DNA of 64,000 bases from Methanotorris igneus Kol 5 (lineage in GTDB: Archaea; AGJL01; Methanococci; Methanococcales; Methanococcaceae). Of this stretch, positions 14,828 to 56,940 are shown piece by piece (the first letter of the stretch is position 1; every line of letters begins with the position of its first letter). The stretch covers positions 1,713,130-1,777,129 of the forward strand of contig NC_015562.1 of NCBI RefSeq assembly GCF_000214415.1, given 5' to 3'. The position numbers were made by a program, and so were the translations under genes. Under the pieces are notes generated by a model. It did not search any database. It had not been told where the DNA came from and worked only from the letters and a program-made list of their open reading frames with translations.

Positions 14828-15186
14828 TATAGTCGTGTGCGTTGGAAAGGTTTTTTGGCAAAATCCAAGGGATTTTGCCGTATATCTTTTGGCAAAACTA
14901 AAAGTTTTGCCGTATAATTTGGAATATGCTATTAGTAAATTTTTAAGGTTAATGCGTTATTTCAAATTTTAATGAATGCATAACGATTATAGTTGTGTGC
15001 GAATTTTTTTAAACTTATTATAAAAACTTATAAAATTTTAAGTGGTCATTTTTCCTCCTTTAAATTTTGAAATTGAGTGTTTAATACTCCATAAATTTTA
15101 TTAAAGTTATGTTCATCGAAGCGAAGCTTCGAGCAGCGAAAACTCCGCAGGAGTTTTCGCCTAAATTTCTAACGCACACAACTATA
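14828..15186. repeat. composite of TIR family 1 elements with internal hairpins
   Basis: A first left end, TATAGTCGTGTGCG, is at 14828-14841. A second element has perfect ends TATAGTTGTGTGCG (14988-15001) and CGCACACAACTATA (15173-15186). The first part holds two GGCAAAA hairpins near 14859-14913. The second holds TCGAAGCGAAGCTTCGA (near 15116-15132) and a GCGAAAACTCC/GGAGTTTTCGC hairpin (near 15137-15160). It fills most of the gene-free stretch between drg and the insertion sequence. Confidence 0.8.
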
Positions 15187-15207: not shown

Positions 15208-16229
15208 GAGGTTGTCGAAAAATTATTTCATCAATGAATTTAAATATTACTCTCTAATACTAATAACTCTCATTAGTGTTAAAATATTATGAACGATTGC
15301 TACTGCTAAAGTAGCTCTACATCTACTTTCAGGTAGTTTTTCATTTAGAGTTAATCTAAATTTAGTTTTTAGCCCTCCAAATATCGCTTCTATTACCCCT
15401 CTAATTTTATACAGTTTCTTATCAAACAATTTTTTAACTTTCTTTCTGATTTTAGAAATACCGTAATCCCATTTAAACTCTTTTGTTTTAACTATTGGAA
15501 TGAGGTCTATGGATAACAACTCTCTAAGTAAATCTTCATCATCGTAACCACCATCCAACAATATTATCGCACCTTTCACAAAATCTAAAGATTTTATCAT
15601 TTTTAGTAAGTTTTTACTGTCTGAACTATATCCATTATCCCATTTTACCATAACAATCGAAATTAATCCATAATCTTTATAATAGCAAGCTAATACGTGC
15701 ATTTTGTCAAAAACCCGATACTTTACCTTTTTTATTTCATTATTCACAACTCTGATTCTTTCACAATACACTCTTAATAAATGGACTCCAGTGGAATCAG
15801 CTATGTAAATTATAACCGATGATTTTAACGAATTAGCAATAATTAAGTGTAATCCAACGATTATTTTAGTTAAATCGCTTATTTTAATCCTCTGAAAAGC
15901 TTTTCCGTATGTGGAGCTATCTATATGCTTTTTATGTAAATAATCGGAAAGAGTTTCTAAATCTCTTAAACTAATTCTAAAAATGTGTTTTATTATTAGA
16001 GTAGCTATATATTCATTGTAACTTATAGCTAAAGGCCTTCCTACTTTGCGTTTTTCTTTATATGGAAGTAAAATATTTATAATAAATGAAACAAAATCAT
16101 AAGTGTACTTAATATTGAATATCTTAAACCTCTTATCGTAGGCTTTCCAGTATCCTTTTCTTTTGGTTTTTCTGCCGCTCATAATTATTATTACTATTAT
16201 TTATAGTATTCGTATTTTTCGACAACCTC
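15208..16229 (-). mobile_element. insertion sequence copy 1, 1,022 bp, IS5-like
   Basis: Terminal inverted repeats GAGGTTGTCGAAAAAT (left) and its complement (right) bound one transposase gene. Length matches the copy at 33266-34287. Flanks TGATTATAA and AAGAAAAAA are not direct repeats, so this copy lacks a target-site duplication, unlike copy 2. Confidence 0.9.
15247..16182 (-). CDS. DDE transposase of IS5-like element, copy 1
   Basis: 311 residues, identical to the product of 33305-34240. A basic N-terminus (SGRKTKRKGYWKAYDKRFK) is followed by a helical region and a DDE core: first Asp in IYIADSTGVHL, second in AIILLDGGYDDEDLL, Glu in GVIEAIFGGLKTKFR. The Y-x2-R-x3-E-type signature around VIEAIFGG supports the IS4/IS5 superfamily. 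The frame is intact, so the element may be active. It lies upstream of and opposite to secD. Confidence 0.9.
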   Translation of the reverse strand: MSGRKTKRKGYWKAYDKRFKIFNIKYTYDFVSFIINILLPYKEKRKVGRPLAISYNEYIATLIIKHIFRISLRDLETLSDYLHKKHIDSSTYGKAFQRIKISDLTKIIVGLHLIIANSLKSSVIIYIADSTGVHLLRVYCERIRVVNNEIKKVKYRVFDKMHVLACYYKDYGLISIVMVKWDNGYSSDSKNLLKMIKSLDFVKGAIILLDGGYDDEDLLRELLSIDLIPIVKTKEFKWDYGISKIRKKVKKLFDKKLYKIRGVIEAIFGGLKTKFRLTLNEKLPESRCRATLAVAIVHNILTLMRVISIRE

Positions 16230-17620: not shown

Positions 17621-17901
17621 TATAGTCGTGTGCGTTAGAGATATTTGGCAAAATCTAAATGATTTTGCCGTATAATTTGGGATATGGCATTAGTAAATTT
17701 TTAAGATTAATGTGTTATTTCAATTTTTTGGCAAAACCTAAAAAGGTTTTGCCGTATATTTTAATGAAGGATAACAATTATTTAAAAATTCATTAACGCA
17801 TAAATAAGTCTAAAAATTAATAGCAAAACCCAAAGGGCTTTGCCGTATGGATTAATGGCAAAACCGAAGGTTTTGCCGTATATATTTCGCACACGACTAT
17901 A
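17621..17901. repeat. 281-bp TIR family 1 element with four internal hairpins
   Basis: Perfect ends TATAGTCGTGTGCG (17621-17634) and CGCACACGACTATA (17888-17901). Inside are four GGCAAAA/TTTTGCCGTATA hairpins (near 17648, 17729, 17822 and 17855) and the core TTTTTAAGATTAATGTG. The flanks both read TCTAAA (17614 onwards and 17902 onwards), a possible short target duplication. Occupies most of the secD to 17991 gap. Confidence 0.88.
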
Positions 17902-20346: not shown

Positions 20347-20372
20347 ATTCTCACCGAAACTTTTAAAATTGA

Positions 20373-20550
20373 GCGAAATCCTTACGGATTTTGCAGCTCT
20401 TCGCTCCTTCGGAGCTCCGATTAAACAAATTCCTTCGGGATTTTGCAATTCGGGCCTTATGGTTGGTTTCATCCAAATGATATATACCTTGCTTCACTTG
20501 GTATTTCTCTCGGAGATTAAAAAAATACGGCAAAACCTTTAGGTTTTGCC
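20373..20550. repeat. cluster of palindromic repeats upstream of comD
   Basis: Successive hairpins: GCGAAATCC-TTAC-GGATTTTGC (near 20374-20393), GAGCTCCGAAGGAGC-like (near 20404-20418), an ATTCCTTCGGGATTTTGCAATTCGG stretch, and GGCAAAACC-TTTA-GGTTTTGCC (near 20528-20550). It forms most of the gap between comD and the divergent gene; the comD promoter must lie within or beside it. Confidence 0.7.
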
Positions 20551-30021: not shown

Positions 30022-31149
30022 TTGGAAAAGATTATTGTTAGATACGGTGAAATTGGGACAAAGTCAAAACAAACAAGGAAGAGATTTGAGGAACTCCTTG
30101 CAAAGAGTATAAGAAAACTCCTTCAAAAATATGATATACACCCAGATGTTAGTATATTGCACACAAGGTTATTAGTAGAGGTTAATAAGGAAGATTTTGA
30201 AAAAACTCTTGAATTACTAAGAAAAGTTCCTGGAATAAGTTCATTTAGCCCATGTGTCGAGTGTAAGTTGGATATTGACAACATTGTAAAAACTGCAAAG
30301 AGAGTTGTTAAGGATAAACTAAAATCCATTGATAAAGATGAGATAACTTTTGCAGTAAAAACACAGAGAGTTCAGAAATACTTCCCATTAACATCCCCTG
30401 AAATAAATAGTATTGTTGGAGAGAAAATCATAGAGGAGTTTGGATTAAAAGTTGATTTAAAAAATCCTGACATACTCGTTGAAATAGAAGTTTTAAAGGA
30501 TAGAGCATTTATTTTCACAGAAAGAATTAGAGGTATTGGTGGATTACCAGTAGGAACTCAAGGGAATGTATTGGTTTTAATGTCTGATGGTATTGACAGC
30601 CCTGTTGCTGCATATCTAATGATAAGAAGAGGGTGCAACGCTACGTTGTTACATTTAAAGTTATCAGAAGAAGGGCTTAAAAAGACAAGAAAACTTGCAG
30701 GTATTTTAAGTGATTATGATTGTGATTTGAGGTTTGTAGTGAAAGACTTTAGAGATGAGTTGAAAAGTATAAAAGAGAATCTTAAAAAGCTCGACAAGGA
30801 AGAGTACACCTGTATATTCTGCAAGAGAACTATGTTAAAAATAGCGGAGAAATATGCAAAAGATTTGGGCTGTGATGCTATCGTTACAGGAGATAATTTG
30901 GGACAAGTGGCATCTCAAACCTTAAAGAATTTAAGGGCTATAAGTGAAGGAATTGAATTGCCCATATTGAGACCTTTGATTGGAATGGACAAAAATGAAA
31001 TAATAGAGATTGCAAAAGAAATAGGAACTTTTGAGATTTCAACAAGTAAAGAGATTAAATGTTTTGCAGTTCCAAAATATCCTGTAACAAAAGCAAATAT
31101 TGAAAAGATTAAGGAAATTGAAAAAGAATTAAAAATAAGAGGACATTGA
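30022..31149 (+). CDS. thiI: tRNA 4-thiouridine sulfurtransferase
   Basis: 375 residues from a TTG with ACAGGTGGT upstream. NFLD-like region and THUMP domain (about 1-165), then the PP-loop SDGIDSP at 188-194. No rhodanese domain. C264 and C267 (CIFC) plus C347 (IKCFAV) match the three-Cys pattern reported for methanogen ThiI proteins, which carry an Fe-S cluster. It thiolates U8 of tRNA. The last codons (RGH) and the stop lie inside an inserted palindromic element; an alternative native-looking ending is repeated at 31200-31250. Confidence 0.92.
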   Translation: MEKIIVRYGEIGTKSKQTRKRFEELLAKSIRKLLQKYDIHPDVSILHTRLLVEVNKEDFEKTLELLRKVPGISSFSPCVECKLDIDNIVKTAKRVVKDKLKSIDKDEITFAVKTQRVQKYFPLTSPEINSIVGEKIIEEFGLKVDLKNPDILVEIEVLKDRAFIFTERIRGIGGLPVGTQGNVLVLMSDGIDSPVAAYLMIRRGCNATLLHLKLSEEGLKKTRKLAGILSDYDCDLRFVVKDFRDELKSIKENLKKLDKEEYTCIFCKRTMLKIAEKYAKDLGCDAIVTGDNLGQVASQTLKNLRAISEGIELPILRPLIGMDKNEIIEIAKEIGTFEISTSKEIKCFAVPKYPVTKANIEKIKEIEKELKIRGH

Positions 31150-31250
31150 GCGAAAATACCTTATTCTTTTTTTTTTTGATGAAACTTTTTAAAAGTTTCA
31201 TTGAGAAAATTAGGGAGATTGAAAAAGAATTAAAAAATATTAGCAAATAA
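31099..31250. repeat. duplicated thiI 3' end flanking a palindromic element
   Basis: 31099-31149 encodes IEKIKEIEKELKIRGH-stop. 31200-31250 encodes IEKIREIEKELKNISK-stop. Between them an element starting near AGAGGACATTGAGCGAA has a T12 run (near 31168-31179) and hairpin GAAACTTTTTAAAAGTTTC (31181-31199), also seen at 56902-56920. The T-run probably serves as thiI terminator. Confidence 0.75.
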
Positions 31251-33265: not shown

Positions 33266-34287
33266 GAGGTTGTCGAAAAATTATTTCATCAATGAATTTA
33301 AATATTACTCTCTAATACTAATAACTCTCATTAGTGTTAAAATATTATGAACGATTGCTACTGCTAAAGTAGCTCTACATCTACTTTCAGGTAGTTTTTC
33401 ATTTAGAGTTAATCTAAATTTAGTTTTTAGCCCTCCAAATATCGCTTCTATTACCCCTCTAATTTTATACAGTTTCTTATCAAACAATTTTTTAACTTTC
33501 TTTCTGATTTTAGAAATACCGTAATCCCATTTAAACTCTTTTGTTTTAACTATTGGAATGAGGTCTATGGATAACAACTCTCTAAGTAAATCTTCATCAT
33601 CGTAACCACCATCCAACAATATTATCGCACCTTTCACAAAATCTAAAGATTTTATCATTTTTAGTAAGTTTTTACTGTCTGAACTATATCCATTATCCCA
33701 TTTTACCATAACAATCGAAATTAATCCATAATCTTTATAATAGCAAGCTAATACGTGCATTTTGTCAAAAACCCGATACTTTACCTTTTTTATTTCATTA
33801 TTCACAACTCTGATTCTTTCACAATACACTCTTAATAAATGGACTCCAGTGGAATCAGCTATGTAAATTATAACCGATGATTTTAACGAATTAGCAATAA
33901 TTAAGTGTAATCCAACGATTATTTTAGTTAAATCGCTTATTTTAATCCTCTGAAAAGCTTTTCCGTATGTGGAGCTATCTATATGCTTTTTATGTAAATA
34001 ATCGGAAAGAGTTTCTAAATCTCTTAAACTAATTCTAAAAATGTGTTTTATTATTAGAGTAGCTATATATTCATTGTAACTTATAGCTAAAGGCCTTCCT
34101 ACTTTGCGTTTTTCTTTATATGGAAGTAAAATATTTATAATAAATGAAACAAAATCATAAGTGTACTTAATATTGAATATCTTAAACCTCTTATCGTAGG
34201 CTTTCCAGTATCCTTTTCTTTTGGTTTTTCTGCCGCTCATAATTATTATTACTATTATTTATAGTATTCGTATTTTTCGACAACCTC
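33266..34287 (-). mobile_element. insertion sequence copy 2, with 9-bp target duplication
   Basis: Same 1,022 bp length and ends as copy 1 (GAGGTTGTCGAAAAAT). The flanks are direct repeats TATAAAATT at 33257-33265 and 34288-34296, so this copy moved here by transposition. It sits just upstream of the cbiM TATA box. Confidence 0.95.
33305..34240 (-). CDS. DDE transposase of IS5-like element, copy 2
   Basis: 311 residues, identical in sequence to the 15247-16182 product, with the same DDE residues (ADSTG, LDGGYDD, GVIEAIFGG). Intact frame plus an intact target duplication suggest a recent insertion and possibly current activity. Its read-through direction is towards cbiM, so it could influence cobalt-transporter expression. 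Confidence 0.9.
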   Translation of the reverse strand: MSGRKTKRKGYWKAYDKRFKIFNIKYTYDFVSFIINILLPYKEKRKVGRPLAISYNEYIATLIIKHIFRISLRDLETLSDYLHKKHIDSSTYGKAFQRIKISDLTKIIVGLHLIIANSLKSSVIIYIADSTGVHLLRVYCERIRVVNNEIKKVKYRVFDKMHVLACYYKDYGLISIVMVKWDNGYSSDSKNLLKMIKSLDFVKGAIILLDGGYDDEDLLRELLSIDLIPIVKTKEFKWDYGISKIRKKVKKLFDKKLYKIRGVIEAIFGGLKTKFRLTLNEKLPESRCRATLAVAIVHNILTLMRVISIRE

Positions 34288-39599: not shown

Positions 39600-39985
39600 T
39601 GTCCTGAAACATTAAACGAAACTTTTAAAAAGTGAATGAAAACCTTTCAGTTTTCATAGCCAAACCTTACAGTTTGGTTAGGCGAAATCAAAGATTTAGT
39701 TGAATAACTACGTTATAGTCGTGTGCGTTAGAGTTTGGAATATACTATTGGTAAATTTTTAAAGATTTATATCTTATTTCAAATTTTAAGGAGGAATAAG
39801 GACTATTTAAAAATTCATTAATGCATAATTAATGGCAAAACCAAAGGTTTTGCCGTATATCAATTCCGCACACGACTATATTCAACTTCCCTGCAACCGA
39901 AGGTTGCAGTGGACGCTGCTCGAACCTTCGGTTCGATTTCATCAAAGGGATGTATAACTTCGCTTCTCTCGGTGATGCCTCGTAG
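39600..39985. repeat. repeat-rich intergenic region with TIR element 39714-39880
   Basis: The 39457-40029 gap holds GAAAACCTTTCAGTTTTC and CAAACCTTACAGTTTG hairpins (near 39638-39680). A 167-bp family 1 element has perfect ends TATAGTCGTGTGCG (39714-39727) and CGCACACGACTATA (39867-39880) with one GGCAAAACC hairpin. A palindromic block follows (GCAACCGAAGGTTGC near 39894-39908; CGAACCTTCGGTTCG near 39919-39933). No gene seen. Confidence 0.82.
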
Positions 39986-41459: not shown

Positions 41460-41615
41460 ATATCCTGAAATTAGTATAATTTGGTAAATTTTTAAGGTTA
41501 ATATTTATTTCAAATTTTAATGAAGAATGAGGATTATTCAGAAATTTAATGGCAAAACCCATAGGTTTTGCCGTATGGATTAATGGTAAAACCCATGATT
41601 TTGCCGTATATATTT
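41460..41615. repeat. degenerate TIR family 1 core with two hairpins
   Basis: Core GGTAAATTTTTAAGGTTAAT and TTCAAATTTTAATGAAGAAT as in other copies, hairpins GGCAAAACCC..GGTTTTGCCGTA (near 41551-41575) and GGTAAAACCC..GATTTTGCCGTA (near 41585-41608). Terminal repeats are not recognisable. Confidence 0.65.
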
Positions 41616-44310: not shown

Positions 44311-44649
44311 ATGCATAAAAACAAAAAATTTAATGTATTTGCATACGGGGAGTTGATGAAAGAAGAAAGATTAAAGGAGTTAATAAATAGAGTGCCAAAA
44401 ATGAAAAAAGGAAAAATTTTTGGATTTGAAAAGTTTTTTGATGAGGGTATTGGATATTATGGGATTAAAAAGAAGGAAGGTTCAGTTGTTGAAGGAGTTA
44501 TTTTAATGGACATAACTGAAGAAGAATTAAGGATATTTGACGATTATGAGGATGAAGGAATTTACTATTTCAGAGAGAAAACAAAGGCATACGATGAGGA
44601 AGGGAATGAATATGATGTATATGTTTATTTAAGAGTAAAGGAAAAGTAA
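44311..44649 (+). CDS. gamma-glutamylcyclotransferase-fold (AIG2-like) protein
   Basis: 112 residues. NVFAYGELMKEERL is the YGxLM substrate loop; EGVILMDITEEELRIFDDYED carries the family's catalytic-type Glu/Asp region. GGCT-fold proteins cyclise gamma-glutamyl amines or peptides; substrate unknown here. The last 48 bp of the gene are repeated at 44718-44765, directly before dadD, with a palindromic element between, so the present C-terminus (RVKEK) may be a copy of the original (RVKEE). Confidence 0.8.
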   Translation: MHKNKKFNVFAYGELMKEERLKELINRVPKMKKGKIFGFEKFFDEGIGYYGIKKKEGSVVEGVILMDITEEELRIFDDYEDEGIYYFREKTKAYDEEGNEYDVYVYLRVKEK

Positions 44650-44765
44650 AATGGTTCATATACCTCCGAGCAAAGCGAGGAGGTATCTCCGCGGGATGCA
44701 ACGACGCGGCGTTGCATGGGGATGAATATGATGTATATGTTTATTTAAGGGTGAAGGAGGAGTGA
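44602..44765. repeat. 48-bp duplicated gene end flanking a two-hairpin element
   Basis: 44602-44649 and 44718-44765 match at 42 of 48 positions, all six differences being A/G, and both end in a stop in the same frame. The 68 bp between has two perfect hairpins: ATACCTCC-GAGCAAAGCGA-GGAGGTAT and ATGCAACG-ACGCGG-CGTTGCAT. The second copy supplies the dadD Shine-Dalgarno AAGGAGG. Confidence 0.9.
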
Positions 44766-44767
44766 AG

Positions 44768-46054
44768 ATGATTTTAATAAAGAATCTCTCCTATTTAATT
44801 GATAAAGATTTGAAGGTTTATGAAAACTGCGATGTATTGATTAAGAAGGAAGAAGATGGAATAAAGAAAATTGTAGGAAAAAATTTAATAGAAAAAGAAA
44901 ATTTAAACAAAAGCGATTTAAAAATTATCGATGGAAAAAACAAAGCAGGTATGCCGGGGTTGGTAAATACTCACACTCACATTCCGATGACGCTTTTGAG
45001 GGGAATAGCAGACGATATGAGGTTAGAGGAATGGCTGAGAGAGAAAATTTGGCCAAATGAAGCAAAACTAACAAAAGAAGATGTTTATTATGGCTCTTTA
45101 TTAGGATGCTTAGAGATGCTGAGGTTTGGAGTTACAATTTTCAATGACATGTATTTTTTTGCCGAGAAAGTAGCAGAAGCTACAAAGGAAATTGGATTGA
45201 GGGGAGTTATCTCCTTCCCAATAATTGACGTTGGAACTCCAGAATGTGAAAATAGGGATAAATTAATAAGGATGGCAGAGAACTTCATCAAAAAATATAA
45301 AGAAGATAAACTAATAAAGCCTGCAATTGCCCCACATGCTCCATATACGTGTTCAGAGGAGACATATAAAGAATGTAAAGAGATAGCAGACAATTATGGA
45401 ACTTTATTACATACACACCTATCAGAAACAAGGTATGAAGTTGTTGAAATGGAAAATAAAATCGGTTTAAGGCCAATAGAATACTTAGAAAAAATAGGTG
45501 TTTTAGACAACAACGTAATTGCCGCACACTGCGTGTGGGTTACAAAGGAAGAAGTTAGAAAGTTGGCAAAACACAAAGTGAAGGTTTCCCACTGCCCAAT
45601 AAGTAATATGAAGTTAGCAAGTGGGGGCGTTATGCCTTTAATTGAGATGCTAAATGATGGTGTTGAGATAACTATTGGAACTGATGGAGTTGCAAGCAAT
45701 AACAACTTAGATATGTTGGAAGAGATTAAGGTTTGCTCCATACTGCATAAAGCCCATAGATGGGATGCAACAGTTGGAGATATAGATACAGTTTTGAAGA
45801 TGGCATTTAATAGTGATGCTTTGGGAATTGAGAATAATGATATTGTTTTGATTGATTTAACTGCCCCTCATTTAAGACCTATCCACAACATAAAATCAAA
45901 TATTGTCTATTCCGCAAATGGAAATGATGTTGACACCGTTATAGCAAATGGAGAAGTTTTAATGGAAAATAAAAGATTTAAATGTATTGATGAGAAATTT
46001 TTAGACAAGTTGTATGAGAAGGTAGATAAAATCAAAGAAAAATTTTCATGCTGA
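44768..46054 (+). CDS. dadD: 5'-deoxyadenosine deaminase (MtaD/DadD family)
   Basis: 428 residues from ATG 44768; AAGGAGG at 44754-44760 gives good spacing, whereas GTG 44762 is too close. Amidohydrolase metal ligands: VNTHTHIPM, LLHTHLSE, IAAHCVWV, TIGTDGVASNN. Deaminates 5'-deoxyadenosine, and also SAH or MTA, in methanogens that recycle radical-SAM by-products. Its ribosome site lies within the duplicated end of the upstream GGCT-fold gene, implying an older overlapping arrangement. Confidence 0.88.
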   Translation: MILIKNLSYLIDKDLKVYENCDVLIKKEEDGIKKIVGKNLIEKENLNKSDLKIIDGKNKAGMPGLVNTHTHIPMTLLRGIADDMRLEEWLREKIWPNEAKLTKEDVYYGSLLGCLEMLRFGVTIFNDMYFFAEKVAEATKEIGLRGVISFPIIDVGTPECENRDKLIRMAENFIKKYKEDKLIKPAIAPHAPYTCSEETYKECKEIADNYGTLLHTHLSETRYEVVEMENKIGLRPIEYLEKIGVLDNNVIAAHCVWVTKEEVRKLAKHKVKVSHCPISNMKLASGGVMPLIEMLNDGVEITIGTDGVASNNNLDMLEEIKVCSILHKAHRWDATVGDIDTVLKMAFNSDALGIENNDIVLIDLTAPHLRPIHNIKSNIVYSANGNDVDTVIANGEVLMENKRFKCIDEKFLDKLYEKVDKIKEKFSC

Positions 46055-48039: not shown

Positions 48040-48267
48040 TCCTATACGGCAAAACCTTGTTTTACCATTAAAAAGACATCCTTTAACCTTTAATTTGATT
48101 ATGCATAATAGTCATTTATAACGCAAATACTATACATAGAAATAAATATGTGGCAAACTATAAATTATATGGCAAAACTTTGTTTTGCCATTTATTTTTA
48201 AATTTAATTTATTCATACTTAAATTTACTTAAATGGATATAACCAATTATTAACGCGAACAACTATA
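48040..48267. repeat. TIR family 1 fragments between GTPase and HAD gene
   Basis: GGCAAAACCTTGTTTTACC (near 48048) and GGCAAAACTTTGTTTTGCC (near 48171-48190) hairpins, an inner right end AACGCAAATACTATA (near 48120-48134) and a final right end CGCGAACAACTATA (48254-48267). Left ends are lost. Confidence 0.65.
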
Positions 48268-52320: not shown

Positions 52321-53388
52321 ATGATACTTCATCCAAGGCCTTCACCAATAGCAGCGGCAATGTATCAACTTAGGGATGTTGGAGTTGATGCTATCATTCT
52401 GCACGGGCCGGCAGGATGCTGTTTTAGAACTGCAAGGTTATTGGAATTAGATGGTGTTAGGGTTTTCACAAGTGCAATGGATGAGAATGACTTTATTTTT
52501 GGGGCAATGGATAAATTAAGAAGAACTATTGAGGAGGTCATAGAATATTTAAAGGAACATAAAAATGACGGTAATTATATGATTGGTATAGTTGGGACAT
52601 GTGCAAGTATGATTATTGGAGAGGATATATGGAGTGTTGTTGATGAATATGATGCAACCCTAATTCCAGTTGAAGTTCATAGTGGATTAAACGACAACAC
52701 CATTGGGGCAATAAATGCTATGGAAAGTTGTTTAAAATTAGGTTTGATTGATGAAAAGGAGTTTGAAAGGCAAAAATATATGCTTAAAAAAGCAACAGAA
52801 ATAGAAAAAAAGAGAGGTATGGCAAAGAGCAAATATATAAAACCAACTTATGAGGATGATTTAAAGGATGTCATTGAATTATTTAAAAACAACATGAATA
52901 AAAACCCAAAAGTTGCATGTGTATTAAATGCAAAAAAAGAAACCGCCTATTTATTCGCACATCCGCTAATTAAGATAAATGAAATATTTAATAACTGCAT
53001 AAATATAGGAAATTTAGACGAAAACATTGGGTTAAAAAAGATTAGAGAAGATGCAAAAAATATTTTAAGGGAATTTAAAGTTGATTATATAACGGGAGGT
53101 TTGGATGAGTATCCAGTAACTGGGGAAAAAGCAGTTGAGATATTAAAGGAGATAAAGCCAGATATTGTTGTAGTTTCTGGAGTTCCCCATGCATTGCCTA
53201 TTGAGGAGTTAAAAGAAGAAGTCGATTGTATAACTATTGGCGTTAGTGATGGGCCAAGATTGTATTATCCAATTAAGGAATATTATGATTATGCTGTTAT
53301 TGAGTTAGATGCACATGCGAAGGTTTTAGGAAAGAGAGAGGTTGTTAAATCAAGATTTGGAGAAATTCTGGAATATGCACTAAAATAA
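52321..53388 (+). CDS. cfbD: Ni-sirohydrochlorin a,c-diamide reductive cyclase, NifD-like subunit
   Basis: 355 residues from ATG 52321, with AGGAGTGAT at 52308-52316. Nitrogenase-like: ILHPRPSPIAAAMYQL, HGPAGCCFRTARLLELDG (cluster Cys), IVGTCASMIIGEDIW. With the NifH-like CfbC it reduces and cyclises the macrocycle in coenzyme F430 synthesis, needed for methyl-CoM reductase. cfbC is not in the window. Promoter TATA TTTATATC near 52269. The gene's last 33 bp appear to be repeated, in decayed form, about 105 bp downstream. Confidence 0.92.
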   Translation: MILHPRPSPIAAAMYQLRDVGVDAIILHGPAGCCFRTARLLELDGVRVFTSAMDENDFIFGAMDKLRRTIEEVIEYLKEHKNDGNYMIGIVGTCASMIIGEDIWSVVDEYDATLIPVEVHSGLNDNTIGAINAMESCLKLGLIDEKEFERQKYMLKKATEIEKKRGMAKSKYIKPTYEDDLKDVIELFKNNMNKNPKVACVLNAKKETAYLFAHPLIKINEIFNNCINIGNLDENIGLKKIREDAKNILREFKVDYITGGLDEYPVTGEKAVEILKEIKPDIVVVSGVPHALPIEELKEEVDCITIGVSDGPRLYYPIKEYYDYAVIELDAHAKVLGKREVVKSRFGEILEYALK

Positions 53389-53496
53389 ATTAAGAGGCCA
53401 TTGCCAAGCGTTAGCAAGGCAATACATCCCGGATATATCAATAGGGCGGTAGCCCCATGTTTCTGAGAAATTTTGAGATATGCATTTGGAAAATAA
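53356..53496. repeat. decayed duplicated cfbD end around a GAGGCCATTGCC palindrome
   Basis: 53356-53388 (TTTGGAGAAATTCTGG...) is followed by GAGGCCATTGCC-AAGCGTTAGC-AAGGCAATAC (near 53394-53425) and then 53460-53496, whose TTTCTGAGAAATTTTGAGAT run resembles the cfbD end with about 80% identity but has lost frame. Confidence 0.55.
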
Positions 53497-53525
53497 ATAA
53501 TAAAAAATAATAAGTGGTGAGATTT

Positions 53526-56836: not shown

Positions 56837-56850
56837 TTTATTTTTTAATA

Positions 56851-56940
56851 GAGGCATTGCTGAGCGAAGCGAAGCAATGCATCCCTTTTGATGAAACTTT
56901 TTAAAAGTTTCTTTTAAAGGTTTCTTTTAGAGGTTTCATG
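56851..56940. repeat. GAGGCATTGC palindromic element after the CRISPR array
   Basis: GAGGCATTGC-TGAGCGAAGCGAA-GCAATGCATCC followed by TTTTGATGAAACTTTTTAAAAGTTTC, the latter shared with the element after thiI (31176-31199). It separates the CRISPR array from the convergent flippase gene. Confidence 0.75.

Follow-up and report, generated by a model that had tools for sequence, protein, structure and literature searches.

Probable insertion of a small palindromic element, with a long target-site duplication, at a gene end in Methanotorris igneus

The insertion sequences IS1549 and IS1634 produce long and variable target duplications of 8-514 bp, for which no mechanistic model exists (PMC2266710). 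With this likeness, the IS1634 family is the nearest precedent for the locus described here. However, its members are 1.5-2 kb long and carry their own transposase and terminal inverted repeats, whereas the element studied here is 30-70 bp long, has a target motif and is precise at one end, and shows no evident inverted repeats at its termini. Target-primed reverse transcription of SINEs and LINEs offers a second comparison, since it also combines a fixed 3' end, a variable or truncated 5' end and a variable duplication that starts from the first-nick motif. Those systems are eukaryotic; the present one is archaeal, with no RVT_1 domain match in the host genome, no A tail and duplications longer than is usual for LINEs.

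Small palindromes are also familiar in prokaryotes. To our knowledge, no long target duplications have been reported for the Rickettsia palindromic elements, which can sit in frame inside genes, as one copy does here (G000:616857-616918). Those elements are about 150 bp long (PMC10969869). The REP/BIME sequences moved by RAYT resemble our element as 20-40 bp palindromes that form mosaic clusters close to gene ends, but here the GTAG/CGTC tag is not found, the host has no Y1 transposase match and target duplications are present. Archaeal MITEs are likewise non-autonomous and multicopy. A MITE of a DDE insertion sequence should share terminal inverted repeats with a parent element and leave a short fixed target duplication of 2-14 bp, whereas the duplications here are ten times longer (aligned lengths 24-101 nt, median 54) and terminal inverted repeats are not evident. 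Casposons, also archaeal, can integrate at the ends of tRNA genes and duplicate their target there; they are about 10 kb long, with 31-nt inverted repeats and a 14-nt duplication (PMC10359463). We found no published description of the present family in the literature searched, which excluded most subscription papers, and it appears to be undescribed there.

A duplicated gene end and its insert

The window, the whole 64-kb stretch of DNA analysed here, covers positions 1713130-1777129 of the 1,854,197-bp single-contig host genome (G000). CRISPR aside, its strongest local repeat lies at the end of a GGCT-fold gene upstream of a dadD-like gene, where positions 44602-44650 and 44718-44766 are 88% identical across 49 nt. 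An earlier note had described this as a 48-bp repeat of the gene end, with only A/G differences, on either side of a 68-bp insert with two hairpins. The repeat is real, the differences within those 48 bp are all A/G and both hairpins are present, but the boundaries were about 10 bp off. Since the anchored alignment extends the repeat to 44600-44656 and 44716-44773 (about 57 bp), the insert measures 59 bp rather than 68. The alignment reaches beyond the stop codon to the dadD start (ATGGTT vs ATGATT) with one 1-nt gap. Both copies end in an in-frame stop codon, and the dadD Shine-Dalgarno sequence does come from the second copy, as had been proposed. The palindrome of hairpin 2 is GCAACG...CGTTGC, at 44698-44715.

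Table 1. Features assigned at the GGCT-fold gene locus and at two further sites in the window
Feature	Position	Strand	Basis
thiI gene end, copy 1, ~38 nt	31099..31136	+	thiI by TIGR00342
Inserted element in thiI, with hairpin 2 at 31178-31199 and a decayed hairpin 1	31137..31199	+	G001 site empty
thiI gene end, copy 2	31200..31237	+	Repeat search, anchored alignment
GGCT-fold gene (AIG2-like gamma-glutamyl cyclotransferase), insertion target	44311..44649	+	Pfam PF06094, E 9.4e-14
Target-site duplication copy 1, 57 nt, with final codons and stop of GGCT gene	44600..44656	+	Anchored alignment
Inserted element, 59 bp, two hairpins	44657..44715	+	Missing in G001; relatives at other G000 sites
Hairpin 1: ATACCTCC-GAGCAAAGCGA-GGAGGTAT, 8-bp stem, 11-nt loop GAGCAAAGCGA with inner 2-bp stem	44660..44686	+	Stems covary across copies
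Hairpin 2, precise right end of element: GATGCAACGACGCGGCGTTGC	44695..44715	+	Right-end hairpin searches, flank repeats
Target-site duplication copy 2, 58 nt, retains ancestral GGCT/dadD junction	44716..44773	+	G001 comparison, anchored alignment
Shine-Dalgarno GGAGG of dadD, within copy 2	44756..44760	+	Sequence
dadD-like amidohydrolase (5'-deoxyadenosine deaminase type), ATG 44768	44768..46054	+	Pfam PF01979; PRK07228 match below model's cut-off
cfbD gene end, weaker case: 53360-53390, degenerate element, copy 2 53465-53498, 79%	53360..53498	+	cfbD by TIGR03282

The same locus was compared in relatives. The sister genome (G001) has a single copy of the gene end (...GTAAAGGAGGAGTGAAGATG), with the GGCT gene abutting dadD directly, and the distal copy in G000 forms the same junction. 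The Methanothermococcus locus L023 has neither repeat nor insert. Thus, both relatives carry one gene end and not two ancestral tandem genes, and the empty site in G001 bears out the proposal that an element entered the gene end so that the C-terminus survives to one side of it and the translational link to dadD to the other. The sequence comparison indicates that a small mobile element inserted into the last codons of the gene and produced the repeat as a target-site duplication of about 57 bp. We consider it very probable that this is a mobile-element insertion with a long target duplication, and that the insert belongs to a non-autonomous palindromic element of Methanococcaceae.

Two other gene ends in the window, thiI and cfbD, had been named as parallel cases. 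The thiI case is clear, and the present stop codon of thiI comes from the element itself; the cfbD case is weaker, with a degenerate element and 79% identity. A composite decayed element was also seen on the minus strand at 20356-20517, upstream of a comD-like gene, with nested palindromes in the loop of hairpin 2 and the terminus GTTTC|GGTGAGA. A further copy (GGCATTGCT-GAGCGAAGCGA-AGCAATGC followed by hairpin 2) lies at 56850-56911, at the end of a CRISPR array.

We located and read the flanks of 14 further G000 insertions in G001. The element is absent there at thiI, 942990, 53895, 584892 and 109253; it is also missing at 1658885 and 46561, where short repeat traces occur, and G001 has different DNA at 532211. 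At 576374, 724420, 922760, 706013 and 1081754 the element occupies the same place in both genomes, so part of the insertions are older than the G000/G001 split. Over 38 nt, the copies at 724420 show 0 or 2 differences within a genome and 4 between the two genomes. This pattern points to gene conversion of one copy by the other; that each genome acquired its own insertion at this site is less likely. At 532211 in G000, two successive elements have left three copies of one gene end.

A family of elements with one precise end

A genome search with the insert sequence found close relatives in G000. The hairpin 1 loop pattern GAGC(N)2-3AGCGA followed by GATGNAAC gave 36 matches in G000, and the reversed control pattern gave none. 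Two forms of the right-end hairpin were found there, GATGCAAC...GTTGC (14 matches) and GATGAAAC...GTTTC (56 matches), with no control matches; these roughly 70 rows are not independent, because a few overlap and many lie within CRISPR arrays or leader-like segments. Right-end hairpins are also present in G001, G011, G017 and G021. Copies were read in stretches around the matches, and weak or unusual copies may be missed. Searches with the element against viral contigs and plasmids, and of Rfam at the element, gave no match.

The element consists of a precise 3' hairpin (GATGNAAC...GTTNC) and a covarying 5' hairpin that is missing in some copies. It spans 30-70 bp, with composites of up to about 300 bp. 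In hairpin 1, 99.5% of cells pair and changes on both sides occur at all 10 pairs; the set was selected on the outer eight pairs, so that the independent test is the inner two pairs only, and these also covary. Hairpin 1 is weak or absent at 10 of 46 aligned duplications, which at some sites could reflect decay rather than 5' truncation. One of these sites, L199, has a 61-bp duplication that is 100% identical, and its insertion is therefore likely to be recent. When the ends ([AG]AGAGG or TATACC... against ...GTTNC) were compared by inspection, no terminal inverted repeats were evident, and we found no parent element.

Several arrangements depart from this layout. At L212 (G021:883599-885101) four right-end hairpins stand in tandem, with a 93-bp unit made of the duplicated target and a short element. 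The copy at G000:885512, on the minus strand, keeps the hairpin 1 stem unchanged while its apical loop is inverted (TCGCTACGCTC). At L033 and L034 (G000:805955 and 1674916) the 11-nt loop GAGCGAAGCGA sits on a short stem immediately downstream of a TnpB-like zinc-finger ORF, where it may be in the guide RNA region of that ORF.

Repeats between the flanks of the element begin at the first base past GTTNC. In 44 of the 87 usable copies outside CRISPR contexts, a repeat scoring at least 40 begins no more than 2 nt from the right end; among mismatched flank pairs, 16 of 3000 gave such a repeat. No duplication is detectable at roughly half of the copies, perhaps because it has decayed. Anchored alignment retained 46 independent duplications in five genomes (G000, G001, G011, G017 and G021), which upholds the earlier claim that the copying of gene ends recurs; many further cases exist. 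The 57-58 nt duplication at the GGCT gene is typical of the family: aligned lengths run from 24 to 101 nt with a median of 54 (n = 46), although some alignments end early or overrun into the element, and true lengths read by eye range from about 21 (706013) to 103 (1658885).

Read by eye, duplications in protein genes contain a stop or a start codon, so that one gene edge stays intact. Insertions at 3' ends include the GGCT, cfbD, pheT-like, SMC-like and leuB-like genes (names without a profile search being readings of translations), and insertions at 5' ends were found at 724420, 942990 and 1081754. Most copies lie at gene edges; the copy at G000:616857-616918 is in frame within a 483-codon ORF. 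Insertions within the last or first tens of bases of a gene survive because the duplication is long enough for an intact gene edge to remain to either side. Some of this pattern must come from survivorship bias, with gene-breaking insertions lost and non-coding repeats decaying.

In G001, G011, G017 and G021, at least nine insertions begin precisely where the GTTC of a tRNA T-loop begins, and the tRNA gene at such sites is still recognised as intact by ARAGORN. Direct repeats around tRNA 3' ends are the classic picture of integrase att recombination, and the duplicated gene end had indeed been likened to an att-site duplication. Under that reading, or under ancestral tandem gene duplication, the insert would be what remains between the copies. 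Integrase att sites, in contrast, carry one fixed copy of their target on the element; the analogy fails because every insertion here duplicates its own, different host target. The 59 bp hold neither an integrase nor cargo, and tandem gene duplication is ruled out by the empty sites, G001 and L023 each having one gene end. We regard this pair of explanations as extremely improbable.

The start of copy 1 follows a target motif, RTNBARA, with A at position 7 in 41 of 46 duplications and at position 4 in none of the 46. The motif fits both the tRNA T-loop GTTCRAA and the segment AATCAGA. This segment is part of the CRISPR repeat, and similar element copies were seen within or beside other G000 CRISPR arrays.

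We also found a patch of changes at the junction. At positions 3-6 the two copies disagree in 55 of 184 cells, whereas at positions 9-30 they do so in 86 of 991 (Fisher p = 3e-13). Of the 48 substitutions in the patch, 41 replace A or C in copy 1 with G or T in copy 2, versus 98 of 246 further on (p = 3e-9). The distal copy carries A>G and C>T changes in this patch, and in the GGCT case these correspond to the A/G differences close to the start of copy 2. Comparison with the empty sites indicates that the change mostly lies in copy 2, with exceptions. Changes of this type would fit wobble-tolerant pairing or error-prone initiation at the junction. Palindrome correction was rejected as their source since it would produce A and not G, and a tail carried by the element was rejected since near-identical elements in G011 and G017 have different patches. 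A box C/D-like kink-turn at hairpin 2 was likewise discarded, as the bases past GTTNC do not fit.

Candidate movers and routes of insertion

We searched the genomes for domains of possible movers. RVT_1 had no match in G000, G001, G011 or G017 and one in G021. Y1_Tnp had none in G000, G011 or G021 and is present in G001 and G017. DDE_Tnp_1 transposases occur in G000 (19), G001 and G011, with no match in G017 (90% complete) or G021 (complete), both of which have elements. Since each domain is missing from some carriers, none of the three would be a common mover, unless mobility was lost or is supplied externally.

A DDE-type transposase acting in trans could make such duplications in the manner of IS1549 and IS1634. 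Long variable duplications are documented for these two elements of the IS1634 family, which is frequent in Euryarchaeota (PMC2266710), and DDE_Tnp_1 is found in three of the carriers. Yet elements with duplications occur in the complete genome G021, which has no DDE_Tnp_1 match; the abundant G000 transposase is nearest to IS5 models, with all matches below the cut-off; and the elements have a single precise end and no terminal inverted repeats. We therefore consider this route unlikely. G000 also has a 339-aa transposase type.

Other repeats were recorded in the same DNA. An IS5-like insertion sequence (transposase ORF of 311 aa, ends near GGTTGTCGAAAAAT) occurs in sixteen near-identical copies, two of them in the window at 15247-16182 and 33305-34240. 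A different repeat with the ends TATAGTCGTGTGCG ... CGCACACGACTATA is found at 14828, 17621-17901, 38197 and 39714-39880, and at G000:46561 and 53895 this unit is nested in hairpin elements or their duplications. Many GGCAAAACC...GGTTTTGCC palindromes (17640-17890, 41555-41614, 48155-48205 and others) form a separate intergenic repeat family.

The hairpin ends and mosaic arrangement recall bacterial REP/BIME, and the foot preceding hairpin 2 (TTTTGAT) is partly complementary to the target motif, as might be expected if a HUH (Y1/RAYT) enzyme transposed a REP-like element. We know of no Y1 element that produces a target duplication, however, and the absence of Y1_Tnp matches from G000, G011 and G021 also speaks against this route, which seems very unlikely. 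Template switching in replication or repair would do without a transposase or any dedicated mover: a hairpin would be copied from elsewhere, and synthesis would resume about 50 bp upstream. It would account for duplications that are long and variable, for hairpins that are nested or composite and for tandem arrays, among them the repeated 93-bp unit at L212. However, it predicts neither the exact GTTNC right junction seen in dozens of cases nor the target motif, and we judge it improbable, somewhat more so than a DDE-type transposase.

Insertion of the mobile element might proceed as follows. A mover would cut one target strand at an RTNBARA-like site, and the 3' hairpin end of the element would be joined at that cut. 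The other strand would then be cut 20-100 nt away, and fill-in would duplicate the stretch between the cuts. The likeness to target priming lies in the precise 3' end, the second end missing in some copies, the motif where the duplication begins, and the variable duplication length. A target-primed-like step, taken alone, is a possibility that we put forward tentatively. Still more tentative is the fuller proposal of a SINE-like target-primed route in archaea that have no recognisable reverse transcriptase, in which the 3' hairpin would be joined at RTNBARA by wobble-tolerant pairing or error-prone initiation, giving rise to the patch. If true, such a route would place these insertions in a new class of their own among mobile elements.

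The long duplications of IS1549 and IS1634 have stood without a mechanism, and the dozens of clean junctions, the target motif and the junction mutation signature described here make the question testable. The element would also account for the odd repeats at 3' ends and the altered C-termini of these genomes, as with the thiI stop codon that it supplies, and such repeats should not be taken for att sites or gene duplications. If our reading is true, tiny archaeal mobile elements insert into gene ends and tRNA genes yet leave them unbroken, by copying 20-100 bp of the target.
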